Program-made: the position numbers and the translations under genes
Notes under the pieces: generated by a model
The model's input: the letters and a program-made list of their open reading frames with translations, nothing else
Databases searched by the model: none
Told to the model about the DNA's origin: nothing
Shown: positions 5,853 through 33,423 of the stretch, piece after piece
How the letters are laid out: every line of letters begins with the position of its first letter
Numbering within the stretch: position 1 is the first letter of the stretch
From: Planctomycetota bacterium
Lineage (GTDB): Bacteria > Planctomycetota > Planctomycetia > Pirellulales > Pirellulaceae
Reading direction: 5' to 3'
Length of the DNA stretch: 37,382 nt
NCBI GenBank assembly: GCA_018970165.1
Contig: JAGWWZ010000030.1
Coordinates: 1-37,382 of the forward strand

Positions 5853-5915
5853 AGCTCAGGCAACAAACGGTCCATCACCCTACGAAATCTCTATCGACTG
5901 CGCTATGAACCAGTG

Positions 5916-25138: not shown

Positions 25139-26464
25139 ATGTCCGATCATTGGAACTCCCTGGCCAACTTGCTTGGCACCCCCTCCCTCGCCCCTCAAAA
25201 ACCCAAAACAGAAAGCTCGGCCAAAACAGAAAGCTCGGTACGGGTAGCCGCAGAACATCCTGCGGTTTCCCCAAGCGATCGAGATGCTTCTCCCGAGGTG
25301 GCTTCGGAAAACGAGTTGGCTCCGGAGCAGCCGAAGACGGAGAAGTCGCGGCTGAAGACCTCTTGGGACGCCGTTGCCAATTTCTTCGGAGTGACGACGA
25401 AAGAACCCGAGGTCGTTCGGGAACCGCAAGTTGAGGAAGCACCTCCCCCAATGGTTGCCACCACTCCTAAATCTAGCGCTGTTTCGCCGAAACCTGCCGC
25501 GAGAAAGGGAAAGCCAAGCATGTGGGAATCGGCTACCGACATGTCGGAGGAAGATTCAGCAATTTCAACTTCCACGGAAACTCTTAAGGGTGAATCTCCT
25601 TCGAACGAAACACCAGATCGACGGGAATCTGCCAAACGAGAATCAGTGCGTCGCGATTCACAGGCTCGAGAACCTGCGCACCGTCGAGAGAGCGGCGCAC
25701 GGGGTGAGAGCGGCGCACGGGGTGAGAGCGGCGCACGGGGTGAGAGCGGCTCCGATGAAGGCATAAAATCCGACGGCGAACCAGAACGACGATCTCATCG
25801 TCGTCCCCCTCGACGCGGCCGCGATGCCGAACCTCGAGGCCGCGATTCGCAACCGCGCGACGTTGTATCGGTTAAGGATCGCGAGCAACCTCGCCACTCT
25901 GATCGTCAGGAATCCCGTGCTGAAAGGAATGTTTCCCCTCGCAACGCGGTCCAACGTCCTCACGAACCACAGACTAGCACATCAAACCAAGAGTCTCGCC
26001 CAGCGAAAAAGCAGTCTGGGTTTGGTGCTGGCATTGTTGGTGAGGATGACGATTTCGGCCGAAAGGGCAGCACCTTTGATGATGAATTTCAAGGGGACGA
26101 AACCCATGCTCGCACACACGATGGGCGAGATGACGTGGACGAGCTTTCGCACGACGATGGCTCTGCTCATAGTGAAGAGGATTCCAGACCGCGTCGTCGG
26201 CGTCGTCGCGGCAGCCGCGGAAGAAAGCATCGCGATGATGCGGACATCAAAGATGAAGATCGAGACGTCGATGCTCGCACAAGCCGTACATCTCGAGATG
26301 ATGACTCCGATGAGCAACCTTCAGACGATGGCCCTTCTGTTCGGCAAGTGAAGATTCCATCATGGACCGAAACGATTAGTGTCCTAGTGGAAGCAAACAT
26401 GTTGAACCATCAACGATCTCAGAGCTCTCCTCGTGGAAATTCAAGAGGACGAGGGCGCCGTTGA
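25139..26464 (+). CDS. Intrinsically disordered, highly charged protein, possible RNA-binding scaffold
   Basis: A 441-residue protein with no fold I recognise. Composition is dominated by Arg, Ser, Glu, Asp and Pro. Two similar aromatic motifs stand out near the N-terminus: WNSLANLLGTP (about 5-15) and WDAVANFFGVT (about 76-86). A third short motif, IPSWTETISVLVEANM, sits near residue 413. A 6-residue repeat GESGAR occurs about 3.5 times (181-200). Alternating acidic and basic blocks follow, including an eight-residue Arg-rich run near 365, and the last residues are RGRGRR. Such Arg/Gly and Arg/Ser-rich tails are seen in RNA-binding and RNase E-like scaffold proteins, an inference only. The start ATG is supported by the conserved-looking first aromatic motif. 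Confidence 0.7.
   Translation: MSDHWNSLANLLGTPSLAPQKPKTESSAKTESSVRVAAEHPAVSPSDRDASPEVASENELAPEQPKTEKSRLKTSWDAVANFFGVTTKEPEVVREPQVEEAPPPMVATTPKSSAVSPKPAARKGKPSMWESATDMSEEDSAISTSTETLKGESPSNETPDRRESAKRESVRRDSQAREPAHRRESGARGESGARGESGARGESGSDEGIKSDGEPERRSHRRPPRRGRDAEPRGRDSQPRDVVSVKDREQPRHSDRQESRAERNVSPRNAVQRPHEPQTSTSNQESRPAKKQSGFGAGIVGEDDDFGRKGSTFDDEFQGDETHARTHDGRDDVDELSHDDGSAHSEEDSRPRRRRRRGSRGRKHRDDADIKDEDRDVDARTSRTSRDDDSDEQPSDDGPSVRQVKIPSWTETISVLVEANMLNHQRSQSSPRGNSRGRGRR
25688..25750 (+). repeat. 18-bp tandem repeat, 3.5 copies
   Basis: Unit GAGAGCGGCGCACGGGGT occurs at 25688, 25706 and 25724, followed by a half copy up to 25750. It stays in frame within the disordered protein, encoding Glu-Ser-Gly-Ala-Arg-Gly. 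The perfect copies suggest replication slippage, and the copy number is expected to vary between strains. Confidence 0.9.
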
Positions 26465-26638
26465 TCTATTCGCATCTCTCTATTTCGCCTTGATAGCTGC
26501 ACCATTTTTGCGATACTCCAACGCCCGCTGTGACTTCGAAGGCAACCCCCCTAAGAGTCTCGGTCGTAATCTTGTGGTGAACTGGCAGTAGGCCAAGTGC
26601 CAACAATTACTCTGTACTCAAACAAGGATTAACTACCT

Positions 26639-27568
26639 GTGTATAAAAACCTCAACGCAACGATTCTTGGTGTTTCTGGGCGACAAAGCGAACTGATCGA
26701 ATTGGCGATGACATATGGCTTCCAAGGATTGGACATCGATGCGGAAGACCTAGTCAAGCGGGTGCAACGAAGCGACTTTGATCGAGCAACTCGATTCCTG
26801 ACCAGTTCCAAGATGAAAGTCAGTGGCTTTGATCTTGCGATTGATTTGGATGCCGATGACACCGTCTTTGAAAAGTCGTTGACCTTGATTCCCACAACGG
26901 CCGAGATCGCTGGCAAGCTTCAAGCTCGGGCTGGATTCTTGCCTCTTCCTGCTGCTACCGATCGCATGGCGTTTCCTGAGTTCTTTGAAGTGATCAGTAA
27001 GCGAGTGGAACGAGTCGCACAGATTTTTGAGAAGAACAACCTACTGCTCGGACTGAGTTTTTCTACCGCGGAAGAACATCGCCAAGGGAAACAGTATAAA
27101 TTCATCCAGGATGTCGAAAGCTTCCTTGCTCTGTTCCGGTCATTCAAGAATCCATCGATTGCCGTCATCATTGACAGTTTTGACTGGATTGTCGGCGGCG
27201 GAACGTGGGAGCAATTGGCTTCCATCCCCGGGAATCGGGTGGCGTCTCTCCGGATCGCCGATACCGAATCGATACCAACCATCGCTCAGTCCACGCTGGA
27301 CAATCGGCAAATCTCCGGCACAAGCGGGTCGATCGATAATGTCCGATTCCTGCAGGTTTTGAGCAAAAATGGGTACAATGGTCCACTGACTAGCTTCGCT
27401 GCCGCTAGCCAGTTCGCGGGAATGAAACGCGATTCGATCGTAGCGAAAACCCAAGATGCCTTGGATCACGTTTTGGCAGGGGCTGGACTACCGACTTTCA
27501 CCCGCCGACCAGATATGATATTAGAATCCACTGCCCCGATCCTCGAGGATATTGGTCTCGAGGCATAG
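26639..27568 (+). CDS. Xylose isomerase-like TIM-barrel (sugar phosphate isomerase/epimerase) protein
   Basis: A 309-residue protein of the AP-endonuclease-2/xylose-isomerase-like TIM barrel family. The N-terminal strand ATILGVSGRQSELIELAMTYGFQGLDID is the usual barrel opening, and IDSFDWIVGGGTWEQL with the preceding SIAVIIDSFD gives the metal-side strand. SLRIADTES and GYNGPLTSFAA resemble later strands of the family. The typical Glu and His metal ligands are only partly evident, so enzyme activity is not assured. The start is GTG 26639, directly before the first strand. It begins 174 bases after the disordered protein and is followed 72 bases later by the FHA gene. Confidence 0.72.
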   Translation: MYKNLNATILGVSGRQSELIELAMTYGFQGLDIDAEDLVKRVQRSDFDRATRFLTSSKMKVSGFDLAIDLDADDTVFEKSLTLIPTTAEIAGKLQARAGFLPLPAATDRMAFPEFFEVISKRVERVAQIFEKNNLLLGLSFSTAEEHRQGKQYKFIQDVESFLALFRSFKNPSIAVIIDSFDWIVGGGTWEQLASIPGNRVASLRIADTESIPTIAQSTLDNRQISGTSGSIDNVRFLQVLSKNGYNGPLTSFAAASQFAGMKRDSIVAKTQDALDHVLAGAGLPTFTRRPDMILESTAPILEDIGLEA

Positions 27569-27640
27569 ATCGCCAGTCGAGCTCTTCGCCTCGAACGGTA
27601 AGTCGTAGTGGCTTGTGCAAAAGTTGATTGAGAGGTTGGT

Positions 27641-28303
27641 ATGACCAGATTGACCCTGCGCGTTGTCCAAGGGGCAGATCGGGGCCGTGTGTTTTCAGAT
27701 CTTAGGCCACCAATCACAATCGGTCGCGAGGAAGGGAATACCATCCAACTCAACGACGAACGAATCAGCCGGTTCCATTGCAAGATCCAAGAAGACAACA
27801 ACCACTTGGTACTCACCGATCTCGAAAGCACCAACGGAACGCGGGTCAATGGACAAGATTGTCAATTGCGGATTCTCCGGTTCGGCGACATCATCTTCTT
27901 GGGCCGCAGCATGCTGTTATTTGGTACACACGATCAAATCGCCAAGAGCCTACAGGACGATTTGACTAGCGAGGGCGATCACTCAGCCGTCGCACACACG
28001 AAAGATGTCGCGGACTTTGACCTCGACATGGATTTTGACCAAACCGTCACCCAGTCGGGTTCGCTGAGCGTACTCCCCGACATCCCTGAGCGGTTGAGTC
28101 CGAGCCAATCAGCGCAGTTGGCTGAGTTGCTTGAGTACTTCCATGATCGAATTGGAGAGATCGTCAACGCAGTCCAAGTCGATGAAAAAAATCCTAAGAT
28201 CCAACTCGACTTGGCGACCTGGCAACACATTCTCCAAGTCTACAGTCGTCTCGCGGAAATGATCCGCGGTATCTCCGATCCAGACTTCAGGCTACCCGGT
28301 TAA
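27641..28303 (+). CDS. FHA domain protein
   Basis: A 220-residue protein with an N-terminal forkhead-associated domain (about 1-100), a phosphothreonine-binding module. Its binding signature is complete: GRE (28-30), SRFHC (43-47) and STNGT (63-67). After an acidic linker (DFDLDMDFDQTVTQ), the C-terminal 90 residues form helices (SPSQSAQLAELLEYFHDRI) ending in ISDPDFRLPG. Ser/Thr kinase signalling is widespread in planctomycetes and an FHA adaptor fits there, though no kinase lies in this window. ATG 27641 gives the first strand MTRLTLRVVQG. Confidence 0.9.
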   Translation: MTRLTLRVVQGADRGRVFSDLRPPITIGREEGNTIQLNDERISRFHCKIQEDNNHLVLTDLESTNGTRVNGQDCQLRILRFGDIIFLGRSMLLFGTHDQIAKSLQDDLTSEGDHSAVAHTKDVADFDLDMDFDQTVTQSGSLSVLPDIPERLSPSQSAQLAELLEYFHDRIGEIVNAVQVDEKNPKIQLDLATWQHILQVYSRLAEMIRGISDPDFRLPG

Positions 28304-28391: not shown

Positions 28392-30734
28392 CTACGGATA
28401 TAAAAAGTACTGGGCTCGTCGCGTCAAGAAATCGCTGACCCCCTCGCGAACTCGAGGATCATCGGCATGGACCAGCGAGCCATCGCGGATTCCCTCTACC
28501 ACCGCCCGACTTCCGAGCAATCGATGAAGCGAACGGGTCTCCCATTCCGATTCATGGAGGCGACGCAAAGCTGCTGCGATCGCAATCCCGATCCCTACCG
28601 GCTCGCATCGGGCGCGGTCGGTGACAATCACCTCAACTCCGTGACACAACTCGCCTTGGAACTTGCTGCCGTTCGGCGTGAAGGAACGGGGGATAAAGGC
28701 GACTCCGGCCAGCCCTTGTCGATTGAGTTCCTGAGCCAACGGCCCCGACTTGATCCATGGTGCCCCAAGAATCTCAAAGGGTGTGTCCGTACCGCGACCT
28801 ACGGAGATGTTCGTGGTCTCTAAAAATCCGATCCCAGGATACAGAAACGCTTGGCGAAGGCTCCGCATGTTCGGCGAAGGATTCACCCAAGGCAATCCTG
28901 TAACGTCCCAAGCACCGGCTCGATTCCAGTTCTCGCACGGGACCACCGTCAATTCAAGATCCAACTTTCGTTCCTCCCGAAACATCATCGCGATCTCACC
29001 GATGGTCATGCCGTGACGAAGAGGCATCGAGTGATAACCTACAAACGACTCGGTTCCTGCGTCGAGCATGGGACCGGAGACGTCGATCCCATTGATCGGA
29101 TTGGGATGATCGAGCACGATGAACTCTCGCTTCTGTTCTGCGGCCGCTGTCATCGCTTCACCCATCGTAGAGATATAGGTGTAGTATCGCGTCCCGATAT
29201 CTTGGATATCAAAAACCAAGGCATCGATTTCAGAGAGCATCTCAGCGGTCGGCTTTCTCGTTTCTCCATAAAGACTGTAGATGGTCAGTCCTGTCGCACG
29301 ATCGACGCCATTCTCGATGCGACTGACATCGAGATTACCCGCAAAGCCGTGTTCCGGGCTGAATAGCGCGCTCAACTTGATTCCCTCCGCATTCATCAAG
29401 ATCTGGGTCGTGGGGACTCCCTGCGAGTCGAGTCCGGTTTGGTTGGTGATCAGTCCGATGCGTTTCCCTTGCAAGGGCTCGAAGCCTCGCTCTTGAATCA
29501 CATCGATGCCGAGTTTCACGGGTTTCGGACTTTCGGTCCAGACGTCGCTTCGAGCAGCGGAACTCGCGATGAGGTTGACGATCTGGCCCGCTAATCCGTT
29601 GACCGATCCCTCTCCGTCCGGATGGAGTCGATTGCTCAAAAACACGAAGAAAAAATCGCGATCCGGATCGATCCATAGGACGGTACCTGTGAAGCCGCCG
29701 TGACCAAACGCTCGCGGGCTCAGCAAATCACCTCGATTCGATGAAAAGCCGGTTTGCATATCCCACCCCAAACCTCGCATACCTCCGGGGACACGGTTCG
29801 CACTGGTCATCAATCGTTTGGTTGCCGGTTGGAGCCATGCGATGCTTTTCCCATCAGCGCCAACCGGTTGCGATTGCAACATCGCCTGGGCATACTTCCG
29901 AAGATCATCCAGGGTTGAGAACAATCCTGCGTGACCAGCAATTCCGGCCAACGCCCAGGCTCTCGGATCATGGACAGTACCGACAATCCATTCCCCATCC
30001 CGCTTCTCAGTCGGGGCACAGCGATGACGTTGCTCTGGCGGAACTCCATAACCGGAATCAACCATTCCCAACGGCTCGAGCGTTTTGACTCGCACGTACT
30101 GGTCGAGCGACATGCCGGATCGCTTTTCAATCAGCTTCCCCAGAACGATAAAGTTCACATCGGAATACTTAAAGGCCTTGCCCGGTTGAGCTTGAGGCTT
30201 GAGTTCGCAAATTTTTTGCCACGCAACTTCGGGGCCATCGTTGTAATCGCTCATTGGATTGTCGGGGATCAATCCGCTGGTGTGAATCAGCAGTTGCCGA
30301 ACGGAGATTTCCTTTTTTCCCTCACGTCCGAATTCAGGGAGATATTCAGAGGCTTGGGCATCGAGGCGGATCAACCCCGCCTCGATCAAGTGCATCACTC
30401 CCGTTGCGGTTGCCACCGGCTTGGTGATCGAAGCCATGTCGAAGATCGTATCGAGCGTCATCGGCTCCGGTTTCGGCTCCACGCTTCGCAGTCCGTAGGC
30501 TTTGCTCCACGTCAGCCCTTGGCTCGATCCAAATCCGATCACACAGCCCGGCATCTTGCCCGCTTCAATCGCCTGCTCCACCAATCGGTCTACCGATTCA
30601 ACCCACTTGGCATCACCTTGACCGAATTGGCTCTGTTTTGATTGGCCAACTTCGCCTTCTTGCGCAAGTGCCATTGTTCCCGTAGCAACTAATCCCCAAG
30701 CAATCAGTCCGCATGCATGAGCCATATATGCCAT
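28392..30734 (-). CDS. Secreted serine hydrolase (class C beta-lactamase fold) fused to DUF1343/NamZ exo-N-acetylmuramidase
   Basis: A 780-residue bifunctional exoenzyme. MAYMAHACGLIAWGLVATGTMALAQ is a signal peptide. Residues about 40-390 are a class C beta-lactamase/penicillin-binding fold: SITK gives the Ser102/Lys105 pair, YSDVN has Tyr190, and HGGFTG (345) replaces KTG. This is the family of Bacillus AmiE (YbbE), an N-acetylmuramyl-L-alanine amidase. Residues about 407-780 are DUF1343, the NamZ family (GH171), which release MurNAc from the non-reducing end. Seen signatures are RIGLITNQTGLD, FSPEHGFAG and FDIQDIGTRYYTY. ATG 30734 has AAGGA 11 nt upstream; longer frames overlap murQ. The domain border lies near nucleotide 29516. 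It is divergent from murQ. The peptide-cleaving role of the first half is inferred; an esterase is an alternative. Confidence 0.88.
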   Translation of the reverse strand: MAYMAHACGLIAWGLVATGTMALAQEGEVGQSKQSQFGQGDAKWVESVDRLVEQAIEAGKMPGCVIGFGSSQGLTWSKAYGLRSVEPKPEPMTLDTIFDMASITKPVATATGVMHLIEAGLIRLDAQASEYLPEFGREGKKEISVRQLLIHTSGLIPDNPMSDYNDGPEVAWQKICELKPQAQPGKAFKYSDVNFIVLGKLIEKRSGMSLDQYVRVKTLEPLGMVDSGYGVPPEQRHRCAPTEKRDGEWIVGTVHDPRAWALAGIAGHAGLFSTLDDLRKYAQAMLQSQPVGADGKSIAWLQPATKRLMTSANRVPGGMRGLGWDMQTGFSSNRGDLLSPRAFGHGGFTGTVLWIDPDRDFFFVFLSNRLHPDGEGSVNGLAGQIVNLIASSAARSDVWTESPKPVKLGIDVIQERGFEPLQGKRIGLITNQTGLDSQGVPTTQILMNAEGIKLSALFSPEHGFAGNLDVSRIENGVDRATGLTIYSLYGETRKPTAEMLSEIDALVFDIQDIGTRYYTYISTMGEAMTAAAEQKREFIVLDHPNPINGIDVSGPMLDAGTESFVGYHSMPLRHGMTIGEIAMMFREERKLDLELTVVPCENWNRAGAWDVTGLPWVNPSPNMRSLRQAFLYPGIGFLETTNISVGRGTDTPFEILGAPWIKSGPLAQELNRQGLAGVAFIPRSFTPNGSKFQGELCHGVEVIVTDRARCEPVGIGIAIAAALRRLHESEWETRSLHRLLGSRAVVEGIRDGSLVHADDPRVREGVSDFLTRRAQYFLYP

Positions 30735-30849
30735 GGCATCTCGGATCCTTAAACACAACAACATATGGGAGCCCTTTCGGAATGCAACGAAACGTGAGAT
30801 CATCATCGTAGTCATTTTTTCGCTCGTAAATACTAGGAGTCCATTCTCA
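30735..30849. promoter_or_regulatory. Divergent control region of the amino-sugar salvage locus
   Basis: These 115 bases separate the amidase-NamZ fusion (minus) from murQ (plus) and must contain both promoters. I found no clear -35/-10 pair or operator and no riboswitch-like fold. A MurR/RpiR regulator gene, common near murQ elsewhere, is absent from the window. Confidence 0.4.
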
Positions 30850-31773
30850 GTGACAAAGGATTTACCCCTCACCGAATGGGACCATCCCGAATCCAAGCAA
30901 TTGGACTCGTTGTCCCCGTTGGAAATCGTCCACCTGATGAATCGCCAGGATCGTCTGGTCGTGGATGCGATCGAGCGTGTGGCGGACGCGGTGGCCGAGG
31001 CGATTTCCATCGTCACGGACCGATTGCGTCGATCGGGGCGACTAATCTATGTGGGTGCAGGAACCTCGGGACGATTGGGGGTGCTCGATGCTTCGGAATG
31101 CCCACCGACTTTTAGCACGCCTCCCGAAATGGTGGTCGGTGTAATCGCAGGAGGAAACACGGCGTTGACTCGGGCTATCGAAGGAGCCGAAGATGACATG
31201 GATGCCGCGGTGGCGGATCTCGAACCGCTCGATATCCAACCCAATGATGTCCTGGTAGGAATCGCTACCAGCGGCAGTACCCCCTACGTTGTCTCCGCGA
31301 TTCGGTTTGCTGCTTCTCGCGGTGCTGAGACGATTGGTATCGCGTGCACCGAAGGTTCCATGCTCGCCGAGTGTGCTCAGCATATGATCTGTCTTTTGGT
31401 CGGACCGGAGATTCTAAGCGGTTCCACTCGACTCAAAGCTGGAACCGCCACGAAGATGGTTCTCAACATGATCAGCACCGGTGCCATGGTCGGCCTCGGT
31501 AAGACCTACGGCAACCGAATGGTCGATCTCAAACCGACCAACGCAAAGCTGAAACGCAGAAGTGTCCGACTCGTTTCCGACATCTGCGGAGTTGATGCCG
31601 ACATCGCAAGCGAATTGCTCGCGCAGTGCGACGGGGAAGTAAAGACCGCTATCGTCGTGCATCTTGGAAAATGCAATGCCGATGCGGCACGCGATGCCCT
31701 AGCGAAATCCAACGGTCAACTGCGTCGTGCACTGGAGCAATTCACCGCCATTGTTCATGAGGATACCGTCTGA
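30850..31773 (+). CDS. murQ: N-acetylmuramic acid 6-phosphate etherase
   Basis: Cleaves the lactyl ether of MurNAc-6-phosphate to give GlcNAc-6-phosphate and D-lactate, in the cytoplasm. 307 residues with the SIS fold. LTEWDHPESKQLD at the N-terminus, YVGAGTSGRLGVLDASECPPTF, and AGGNTALTRAIEGAEDD are diagnostic. Glu83 and Glu114, the catalytic pair in E. coli MurQ, fall at the same numbers here. The C-terminal half contains RLKAGTATKMVLNMISTGAM. The GTG at 30850 has AGGAG 10 nt before it and gives the family's N-terminus; an ATG at 30733 would add 39 residues and run into the divergent gene. The next gene starts one base after its stop. Confidence 0.95.
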   Translation: MTKDLPLTEWDHPESKQLDSLSPLEIVHLMNRQDRLVVDAIERVADAVAEAISIVTDRLRRSGRLIYVGAGTSGRLGVLDASECPPTFSTPPEMVVGVIAGGNTALTRAIEGAEDDMDAAVADLEPLDIQPNDVLVGIATSGSTPYVVSAIRFAASRGAETIGIACTEGSMLAECAQHMICLLVGPEILSGSTRLKAGTATKMVLNMISTGAMVGLGKTYGNRMVDLKPTNAKLKRRSVRLVSDICGVDADIASELLAQCDGEVKTAIVVHLGKCNADAARDALAKSNGQLRRALEQFTAIVHEDTV

Positions 31774-31774
31774 C

Positions 31775-32797
31775 ATGAACAGACTGATTCTCGGTTTGGA
31801 CTGTGGCGGAACGAAGACGACTGCTGCCCTCGCAACAATCGCCGAGGAGTCCTCCGATGGTCGGGATTTCGAGATACTCGGCACAGGTGTCGCTGGCCCG
31901 TCGAATCCTTGTTCGGTGGGCGAAGAACTCGCCTATGCCACCGTGAGAACAGCGATTCGCAGTGCCTTTGAGATCGCAGCAGTGACTCCGGAATCGGTCG
32001 ATTCACTCGCATTGTGTATGGCCGGCATCGGTCGACCGGAAGAGATGCAGCGAGTCCGTGAGTGGGCCCAATCGCAATCGCTCGCGAATCGCATCATCGT
32101 CACTGAAGACATCGAGCCTGTCCGTTGGGCCGCTCTGTGGGAAACAGGACACTTCTCAATTCAATCGTTACCTTCCGACCCGCCATCCTGGGAACGGATC
32201 GTCACGCTGATTTCGGGGACGGGTTCCATCGCTTGTTGCACGGATATGCCAGTAGGCACGGAGAAGCCAGGAACGACCGAGCGTGTCGGAGGCTGGGGCT
32301 ATCTGCTCGGAGATGAAGGGAGTGGATTCTCGATCGGGCTCCTGGGATTGAAGAGTGCTATTGCGACACATGATCGCGGTATGCCGACTACTGAGATGCA
32401 CCGCGAGTTGCTCGATGCGCTGCATTGTCGAACAGTCCCGCAATTGATACCCACTGTGTATCGCATTCCGTTACCAAGAGCGGAGATTGCAGCCCTGAGT
32501 CGGATCGTTCTGCGATATGCGGATCATGATCCACAGGCTCGCGATATTGCGGATCAGACAATCGCGTCTCTATCCTTGCTAGTTCGACTCGCACTGCAAC
32601 GGAACCCAGCGAGCCAAGGCGATTATCTTCTCGCTGTTACAGGAGGTCTCTTGGATGCAGAATCCCCTATCTTAAAGGGAATCCAGGAGTCGCTTGAGGA
32701 CTTGCAATGCGGCCCTTCTCTCGTTCACGTGGTTCAAGCCTCCGTTCACGGGGCTCTTTACATGGCTGCAAAAGCAATCAAGAAACCGCAAGCATGA
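31775..32797 (+). CDS. BadF/BadG-type N-acetyl amino-sugar kinase (MurK/NagK-like)
   Basis: ATP-dependent kinase of the BadF/BadG/BcrA/BcrD ASKHA family, 340 residues. Phosphate-1 loop GLDCGGTKT (7-15), phosphate-2 ISGTGSIA, GGWGYLLGDEGSGFSIG and the late TGGLL are all clear. In Clostridium, MurK of this family phosphorylates MurNAc and GlcNAc at the 6-position; here the gene directly follows murQ, which needs MurNAc-6-P. The context therefore argues for a MurNAc/GlcNAc kinase that replaces the phosphotransferase system used by E. coli and Bacillus. ATG 31775 is placed before the phosphate-1 strand, one base after the murQ stop; AGGA lies 12 nt upstream. Confidence 0.9.
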   Translation: MNRLILGLDCGGTKTTAALATIAEESSDGRDFEILGTGVAGPSNPCSVGEELAYATVRTAIRSAFEIAAVTPESVDSLALCMAGIGRPEEMQRVREWAQSQSLANRIIVTEDIEPVRWAALWETGHFSIQSLPSDPPSWERIVTLISGTGSIACCTDMPVGTEKPGTTERVGGWGYLLGDEGSGFSIGLLGLKSAIATHDRGMPTTEMHRELLDALHCRTVPQLIPTVYRIPLPRAEIAALSRIVLRYADHDPQARDIADQTIASLSLLVRLALQRNPASQGDYLLAVTGGLLDAESPILKGIQESLEDLQCGPSLVHVVQASVHGALYMAAKAIKKPQA

Positions 32798-33423
32798 TCG
32801 AATACTGTGAGGAAAACATCGTCGTCAAAATCGGCGGGGCCTCCTTGTTTGGTGGATCCGGGTTTCTGAACTCGATGCACGCGATGGTTCATGGTGAGCC
32901 TAGACGCCGTGTTTTTGTCCTCTTGGGAGGAGGCGAGACGGTTGAGTCGATGCGATCTTTGCACGATCGGTTTCCCCAACTTGATCCCGAGCAGATGCAT
33001 TGGAGATGCGTGCGGCTATTGGATGCCACCTGGGAAATAGGCTGTGAGTTGTTTCCTGGAGCCATTGGTATCACCGATTGGGACGATTTAATGACTGAGG
33101 CTGTCGGCGGGCAACCGGGTTCGATCTACCTAGTTTGCGCATCTGCTTTCTACTCGCCGGCAGTCTTGTCTCGCATCCCGCAGGAACTACGACCCGCCCA
33201 CGACTGGGATACAACAACCGATGCCTTAAGTTGGGTTCTCTCGAAATTGATTGGTGCCGCTGAGCTTCGAATTGCAAAACGTTGCCCTGTGGATTCTCAG
33301 ATGACAATCGCTCGAGCCGCGAGGTTGGGTATGATAGATTCCGAATTAGTCCGGTTGGTCGGTCTCAGCTCATCTGCGAATACCCCGTCAATCCGCTTTG
33401 TTCAATTAAAGGAGTCCCCATGA
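32794..33423 (+). CDS. Amino-acid-kinase-fold protein of unknown substrate
   Basis: A 209-residue single-domain kinase-like protein. The N-terminal VVKIGGASLFGGSGF and FVLLGGGETVESM correspond to the first and second glycine loops of the amino acid kinase (AAK) fold. A later HDWDTTTDALSWVLSKLIGAAELRIAK stretch is like the (D/E)WDxTSDS...LGA region of small archaeal-type AAK proteins (COG2054-like, the group that includes MfnE). It overlaps the kinase gene by ATGA and the next gene also by ATGA, so it is fully embedded in the murQ operon. Whether it phosphorylates a sugar, a peptide piece or a coenzyme precursor is unknown; the assignment to COG2054 is from pattern only. Confidence 0.72.
   Translation: MIEYCEENIVVKIGGASLFGGSGFLNSMHAMVHGEPRRRVFVLLGGGETVESMRSLHDRFPQLDPEQMHWRCVRLLDATWEIGCELFPGAIGITDWDDLMTEAVGGQPGSIYLVCASAFYSPAVLSRIPQELRPAHDWDTTTDALSWVLSKLIGAAELRIAKRCPVDSQMTIARAARLGMIDSELVRLVGLSSSANTPSIRFVQLKESP

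Follow-up and report, generated by a model that had tools for sequence, protein, structure and literature searches.

A serine hydrolase-NamZ fusion facing murQ in a planctomycete: a candidate enzyme of extracytoplasmic murein salvage

Can one secreted protein both relieve MurNAc of its stem peptide and cut the sugar off the glycan chain? NamZ (YbbC) of Bacillus subtilis is a tested exo-beta-N-acetylmuramidase of family GH171 and prefers peptide-free MurNAc. In the window (the whole stretch of 37,382 nucleotides analysed here), NamZ is joined to a serine hydrolase in a single stop-free ORF on the minus strand (P0001, 28392-30734). Starting with the ATG at 30734, it encodes 780 aa; the mechanical frame starts at 31016, and a further possible ATG is found at 30764. 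Pfam places PF00144 (Beta-lactamase) at residues 48-378 (E 1.8e-71, far above the curated cut-off), NamZ_N at residues 426-626 (E 8.1e-84, 280.5 bits, cut-off 26.9) and NamZ_C at residues 630-779 (E 4.7e-42, 144.8 bits, cut-off 25). An earlier reading of the sequence only had proposed one polypeptide with a domain border near nucleotide 29516 and intact active-site landmarks. The 780-aa frame with PF00144 and complete NamZ_N and NamZ_C domains agrees with this, homology of the NamZ half to PDB 4k05 begins at nucleotide 29519 (residue 406), and every landmark is present. The N-terminus resembles a signal peptide when judged by eye, and the protein is probably secreted. An AlphaFold model, for which the alignment consisted of the window protein and five related-locus proteins, was too poor for use (mean pLDDT 52.9). 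The features of the fusion are the following:

28392..30734, minus strand: serine hydrolase-NamZ fusion, 780 aa (P0001; ORF and Pfam)
30663..30734, minus strand: probable signal peptide, residues 1-24 (by eye, hydrophobic stretch ending ALA-Q)
29601..30593, minus strand: serine hydrolase half, PF00144, residues 48-378 (Pfam)
30420..30431, minus strand: SITK, the SxxK nucleophile motif, residues 102-105
30159..30167, minus strand: YSD motif, residues 190-192 (Y[ST]D is a clade mark; YxN in the other members compared)
29919..29936, minus strand: GHAGLF, residues 267-272 (clade signature)
29694..29702, minus strand: HGG, the third motif, residues 345-347
29460..29600, minus strand: stretch between the Pfam domains, residues 379-425 (4k05 homology starts within it)
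28857..29459, minus strand: NamZ_N, residues 426-626 (Pfam)
29337..29363, minus strand: FSPEHGFAG motif, residues 458-466
29181..29213, minus strand: FDIQDIGTRYY motif, residues 508-518
28398..28847, minus strand: NamZ_C, residues 630-779 (Pfam)

The best solved matches of the second half are 4k05 and 4jja. It resembles these two and B. subtilis NamZ in full-length homology and in the landmark residues. Unlike the Bacillus protein, it is fused behind a hydrolase, belongs to a planctomycete branch and has H543 instead of Arg. Of 38 alignment columns with a conservation of 93% or more across 92 NamZ rows, the window protein keeps 37. H543 replaces a near-invariant residue (R in 90/92 rows), a change common to one Bacilli protein. 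Because of this replacement, the second half is likely, but not certain, to be active as NamZ. H543 would also fit a fusion with one inactive half. Likewise, a title cited in PMC5061867, according to which planctomycetes have peptidoglycan, would fit a protein that serves mainly the turnover of the own wall and not scavenging from others. The 37 conserved columns and the complete set of hydrolase motifs argue against such explanations, which we consider quite improbable.

In the NamZ tree, from which repeat copies, L037, L039, L074 and rows below 330 aa were dropped, the window NamZ half falls among the other fusions of planctomycetes. Some planctomycete NamZs that lack the hydrolase are placed within this fused group, which suggests that the hydrolase was lost in some planctomycete lines. 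Three long NamZ proteins without hydrolase (L048 7271-9841, L055 5864-7864, L064 5727-7661) have N-terminal regions of about 260-480 residues, for which no Pfam family was matched; L048 reaches the contig end. Here, the hydrolase may have been replaced. In one Bacilli locus (L141 3921-6191, minus strand), NamZ is fused to a polysaccharide deacetylase.

What does the first half do? In a single-sequence search against 59 other collected domains (fragments L084, L087-L089 and L169 and repeat copies of loci had been dropped), the window hydrolase domain scored at least 108.7 bits with 43 and at most 76.0 bits with the other 16. The 43 include PBP4B (YfeW) of E. coli and the hydrolase of L122, a locus of the B. 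subtilis type (murQ..hydrolase-NagZ-NamZ). In a quick tree with long outgroup branches that comprised 53 of the 60 domains (the fragments L077, L083, L085, L086 and L168 and the near-copies L037 and L039 were further dropped), the high scorers form one clade of 42 rows including the window (SH-aLRT 99). The first part of this clade contains the hydrolase-first fusions, near which one haloarchaeal and two Bacilli proteins are placed, the second Bacilli operon hydrolases and reverse fusions (support 90) and the third AmiE-type proteins with PBP4B (support 100). The branch that sets the hydrolase-first fusions apart has a support of only 19. The clade has a signature of its own: D192 of the Y[ST]D motif is present in 41/42 members and in 0/11 others of the fold, all of which have YxN. 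D99, T242, A269 and F272 are each found in 42/42 and 0/11, H268 in 39/42 and 0/11. Since the tree itself supplied the 42 rows, and the profile used for the fusion calls had been seeded with many of them, these counts describe the clade and are not a test of it.

The first half had been called AmiE-like in the sequence-only reading. The label AmiE was given here to L122 and L130 based on gene order (murQ ... hydrolase, NagZ, NamZ), not on a name. The NagZ beside the L122 hydrolase matches the solved YbbD of B. subtilis with 926.5 bits. AmiE (YbbE) falls in the same serine hydrolase clade as the fusion, SxxK, YSD, GHAGLF and HxGxTG are common to both, and the AmiE gene shares an operon with namZ. 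However, AmiE is encoded separately and groups in the tree with PBP4B, not with the window protein. A group of AmiE and the fusions without PBP4B, which was named after the tree had been seen, was rejected (AU p 2.8e-5), and the wider clade is favoured over AmiE orthology. This means, judged from sequence relationships, 'AmiE-like' is correct at the family level, and this family spans two reported activities. In PMC5061867, AmiE is termed an extracellular MurNAc-L-alanine amidase, and a title cited there concerns DD-carboxypeptidase activity of PBP4B. The YSD and HxG motifs fail to tell amidase from DD-carboxypeptidase.

Two further family assignments fall short of their cut-offs. The best NCBIfam match of the fusion is the PBP4B equivalog, but it reaches 123.1 bits compared to a cut-off of 385. 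Class C beta-lactamase yields 65.0 bits compared to a cut-off of 415, and YSD is found in place of YxN.

The first half could nevertheless act like PBP4B, i.e. as DD-carboxypeptidase or endopeptidase that trims D-Ala. The NamZ half would then work on ends bared by other enzymes, and salvage would proceed without peptide stripping. PBP4B shares clade and signature with the window hydrolase, its gene follows murQ-murP in one operon, and both the NCBIfam match and the cited title point in this direction. PBP4B itself is unfused, with no NamZ annotated within the 16 kb read. Against a PBP4B-like activity, the match lies far under the equivalog cut-off. Furthermore, trimming of D-Ala alone would leave MurNAc substituted, given the preference of NamZ stated at the outset. 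In addition, the closest kin of PBP4B in the tree includes AmiE, the enzyme designated an amidase in PMC5061867. Overall, such an activity appears unlikely.

The best solved matches of the first half are carboxylesterases and beta-lactamase-fold enzymes, with EstG-like proteins among them (4ivi, 7u1b). They would be compatible with an esterase, or with an enzyme acting on another cell-surface polymer, in a fusion that targets a modified or non-murein glycan. The two fetched Burkholderiaceae fusions (L161, L162) would fit as well: their neighbours are genes for a polysaccharide deacetylase and for a putative glycoside hydrolase (DUF4015 in L162), not murQ. Most fused loci also lack murQ nearby in the stretch read. 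Three observations speak against this reading, which is very unlikely: the first half shares its clade with proteins encoded in MurNAc loci (AmiE-type ones and PBP4B), a fusion of reverse order adjoins NagZ in three Bacilli, and NamZ co-occurs with MurQ in planctomycete genomes (see below).

The enzymes missing from the own genome (95.9% complete) bear on the same question. GH3 (NagZ family), GH20, Amidase_3, Amidase_2 and AnmK were each found in 0/1, compared to 10/14, 4/14, 8/14, 6/14 and 5/14 control genomes, respectively; absence of a single family from an incomplete assembly is weak evidence, and the amidase search covered Amidase_2 and Amidase_3. As neither of these amidase families was found, the first half is a candidate for the amidase task. 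Taken together, its identification as an N-acetylmuramyl-L-alanine amidase has, on the grounds of family and genome content, not quite an even chance. The absence of a separate NagZ, which had been noted for the window, extends to the genome as assembled for GH3. The Bacillus AmiE-NagZ-NamZ pathway, in contrast, has a GH3 NagZ. Without GH3 and GH20, the GlcNAc that follows each MurNAc, and would cap the next one, needs another enzyme, or only chain ends and disaccharides are used; this gap counts against the salvage role proposed below.

Upstream of the fusion and divergent from it, two genes were assigned by profile searches, in line with the sequence-only reading:

30868..31773, plus strand: murQ, MurNAc-6-phosphate etherase (start from family homology; mechanical ORF from 30733, true start slightly upstream)
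31763..32797, plus strand: MurK-like sugar kinase of the BadF/BcrAD family (Pfam and solved relative; mechanical ORF from 31727)

MurQ matches TIGR00274 with 374.5 bits (cut-off 302). The best solved relative of the kinase is the MurNAc/GlcNAc kinase 8zo3 (E 1e-21); with the NagK_SO3507 equivalog it scores 82.2 bits, the cut-off being 370. We propose that the fusion, with both halves active, probably serves extracytoplasmic murein salvage. It would be a secreted enzyme with two active sites, whose serine hydrolase half removes or trims the MurNAc stem peptide, with amidase favoured and DD-carboxypeptidase possible. Next, the NamZ half would cut the exposed non-reducing MurNAc off GlcNAc. Free MurNAc may be imported via a sodium:solute symporter, as suggested by gene order. 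The MurK-like kinase would phosphorylate it, and MurQ would convert phosphorylated MurNAc to GlcNAc-6-phosphate and lactate; for both, the family was tested and the activity is deduced from it. Uptake, kinase and etherase as proposed here resemble MurT-MurK-MurQ of Tannerella forsythia. There, MurT is a transporter described as a novel family, whereas an SSF-family symporter is suggested here.

The symporter was found in related loci. In some relatives, the locus is a divergon with murQ and the kinase in one direction and the symporter and NamZ in the opposite direction. Six symporter copies were scanned with Pfam and belong to SSF (PF00474); the remaining copies were recognized because they resemble that of L033. 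In this locus, the mechanical frame of the fusion opens at 5869 and the symporter frame closes at 5872, and in L043 four bases are shared by the symporter and an unfused NamZ. Within the window, no symporter was found. An orthologue is present on contig 22 of the own genome (46% identity, 407 bits; next best 25%), where it adjoins a second, unfused NamZ (L047 2266-4951, minus strand). This indicates that the pathway is present and that the salvage locus of this genome is seemingly split in two.

The link to murQ and the symporter is not fixed. Of 26 fused planctomycete loci, 7 have murQ, 9 the symporter and 10 at least one of them in the stretch fetched; in an eighth fused locus with murQ (G165), this gene lies just outside. 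Neither murQ nor the symporter is found in 16/26 in the stretch read, and in L032, the closest relative (5.2 kb contig), murQ and the kinase do not adjoin the fusion. At the level of whole genomes, MurQ (limit E <=1e-40, chosen after the first MurQ results had been seen) is present in 52/56 planctomycete genomes with NamZ and in 113/238 without (Fisher p 5e-11, kinship not corrected).

Several neighbours were recorded in passing. A single protein of 635 residues combines MurQ with the MurK-like kinase in L044 (2391-4298, minus strand), opposite to a hydrolase-NamZ fusion. The window encodes FHA and TIM-barrel proteins at 25139-28303 (plus strand), whose order beside the fusion is kept in the Pirellula MAGs L033 and L036; a weaker match concerns the 441-residue protein adjoining this pair. 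The frame after the kinase (32707-33423, plus strand) has a weak likeness to MfnE, a kinase of the methanofuran pathway (23 bits, cut-off 300), and is probably unrelated to murein.

How widespread is the fusion? NamZ_N was detected in 56/294 planctomycete genomes, with 71 matches listed. The 40 stretches fetched comprise every planctomycete NamZ_N match with an open frame of at least 600 residues, because shorter frames are too small for both halves. Three NamZ matches, those of G179, G199 and G246, are fragmented or run off their contigs and were left out of the fusion judgement. The search of planctomycete genomes for the same domain order, which the earlier note had proposed, yielded a single frame encoding the hydrolase followed by NamZ in 23/56 NamZ-bearing genomes, the own genome included (profiles). 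Three further fused planctomycete loci come from Pirellula MAGs (L032, L033, L036). By fusion protein, Pirellula MAGs are also the nearest relatives, L032 being the closest with 66% identity. The same fusion is carried by five genomes from two other genera that are each assembled as one contig (L037-L040, L044), and since it recurs in these and in several genera, misassembly or chance joining of the halves is ruled out. Four plasmid records from Cupriavidus and Burkholderia match at least 92% of the fusion protein in one piece. Two of them are annotated, as 'serine hydrolase' or 'exo-beta-N-acetylmuramidase NamZ domain-containing protein', and the plasmid fusions L161 and L162, both fetched, were confirmed by profile. 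Among viral contigs, 2 stretches fit the pattern searched and 0 were confirmed. Bacteroidota were left out of the sampling.

The architecture itself is already known. A table in PMC2605481 (BMC Genomics 2008), at a time when DUF1343 was of unknown function, contains an S12 peptidase-DUF1343 protein, DDPept-DUF1343, with one member, YP_439122.1. Its domain listing, PF00144 and PF07075 in one protein in the same order, is the basis for likening it to the window protein. This paper also lists Glyco_hydro_3-DDPept, which may be the pairing of NagZ and the hydrolase. A functional study of the hydrolase-NamZ fusion was not found in the literature searched, whose result lists were covered in part. 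The salvage interpretation of the sequence-only reading thus retains its basis in the AmiE-clade hydrolase joined to NamZ, in murQ and the kinase, in the landmarks and in the missing GH3; the fusion is, however, neither special to this window nor new. What this analysis adds is the description of the Y[ST]D clade, a fusion in reverse order and a salvage locus that is seemingly split.

The reverse-order fusion was found in Bacilli, where 52/151 genomes have a NamZ_N match, 51 of them over the cut-off. Among the first 20 stretches fetched from Bacilli, 9 encode a hydrolase of this kind in a gene of its own close to NamZ. In L145, L147 and L150, NamZ comes first in a fusion with the hydrolase, and a NagZ gene is next in each. 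On the NamZ halves, one clade for both fusion orders was rejected with p 0.005 (48/92 rows, without the unfused NamZs of planctomycetes and a part of the Bacilli rows). An earlier test with the 92-row set gave p 2.8e-76. This was unclean, because planctomycete NamZs without the hydrolase fall within the fused group, and has been superseded. When the hydrolase halves were tested, one common origin of the fusions was not rejected (p 0.121). All tested groups were named after the trees had been seen, and the trees were quick and came with long-branch warnings. The opposite order together with the result for the NamZ halves favours two fusions, and the reverse-order Bacilli fusion apparently arose independently of the hydrolase-first fusion.

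The existence of fusions between a Y[ST]D-type hydrolase and NamZ in either order provides good evidence for a common substrate of the two. One might go further and regard the Y[ST]D clade as one family of murein-salvage hydrolases, comprising AmiE, PBP4B and the fused enzymes, all of which would cut MurNAc-L-Ala ahead of NamZ, with two or more separate fusion events to NamZ in opposite orders. At present, this generalization is rather doubtful. If true, the name PBP4B would be a misnomer for an amidase, and in the planctomycete protein a single chain would first strip MurNAc of its peptide and then clip it off. The joining in both orders yields a testable statement on PBP4B of E. coli, whose gene is in a MurNAc operon. 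It also suggests that planctomycetes salvage MurNAc, with a sodium-coupled symporter as a candidate component. In addition, the fusion is a handy single protein for asking whether cutting by an exo-muramidase needs prior removal of the peptide.

Outside the bacteria, a plasmid of Haladaptatus halobius (L163, 527-8196) carries a cluster of AnmK, HAD hydrolase, serine hydrolase, an unknown protein, NamZ and NagZ, an apparent case of archaeal use of bacterial murein. Its serine hydrolase belongs to the same clade as that of the fusion, with YSC in place of YSD. On other haloarchaeal plasmids, serine hydrolase and DUF1343 genes are located near each other.
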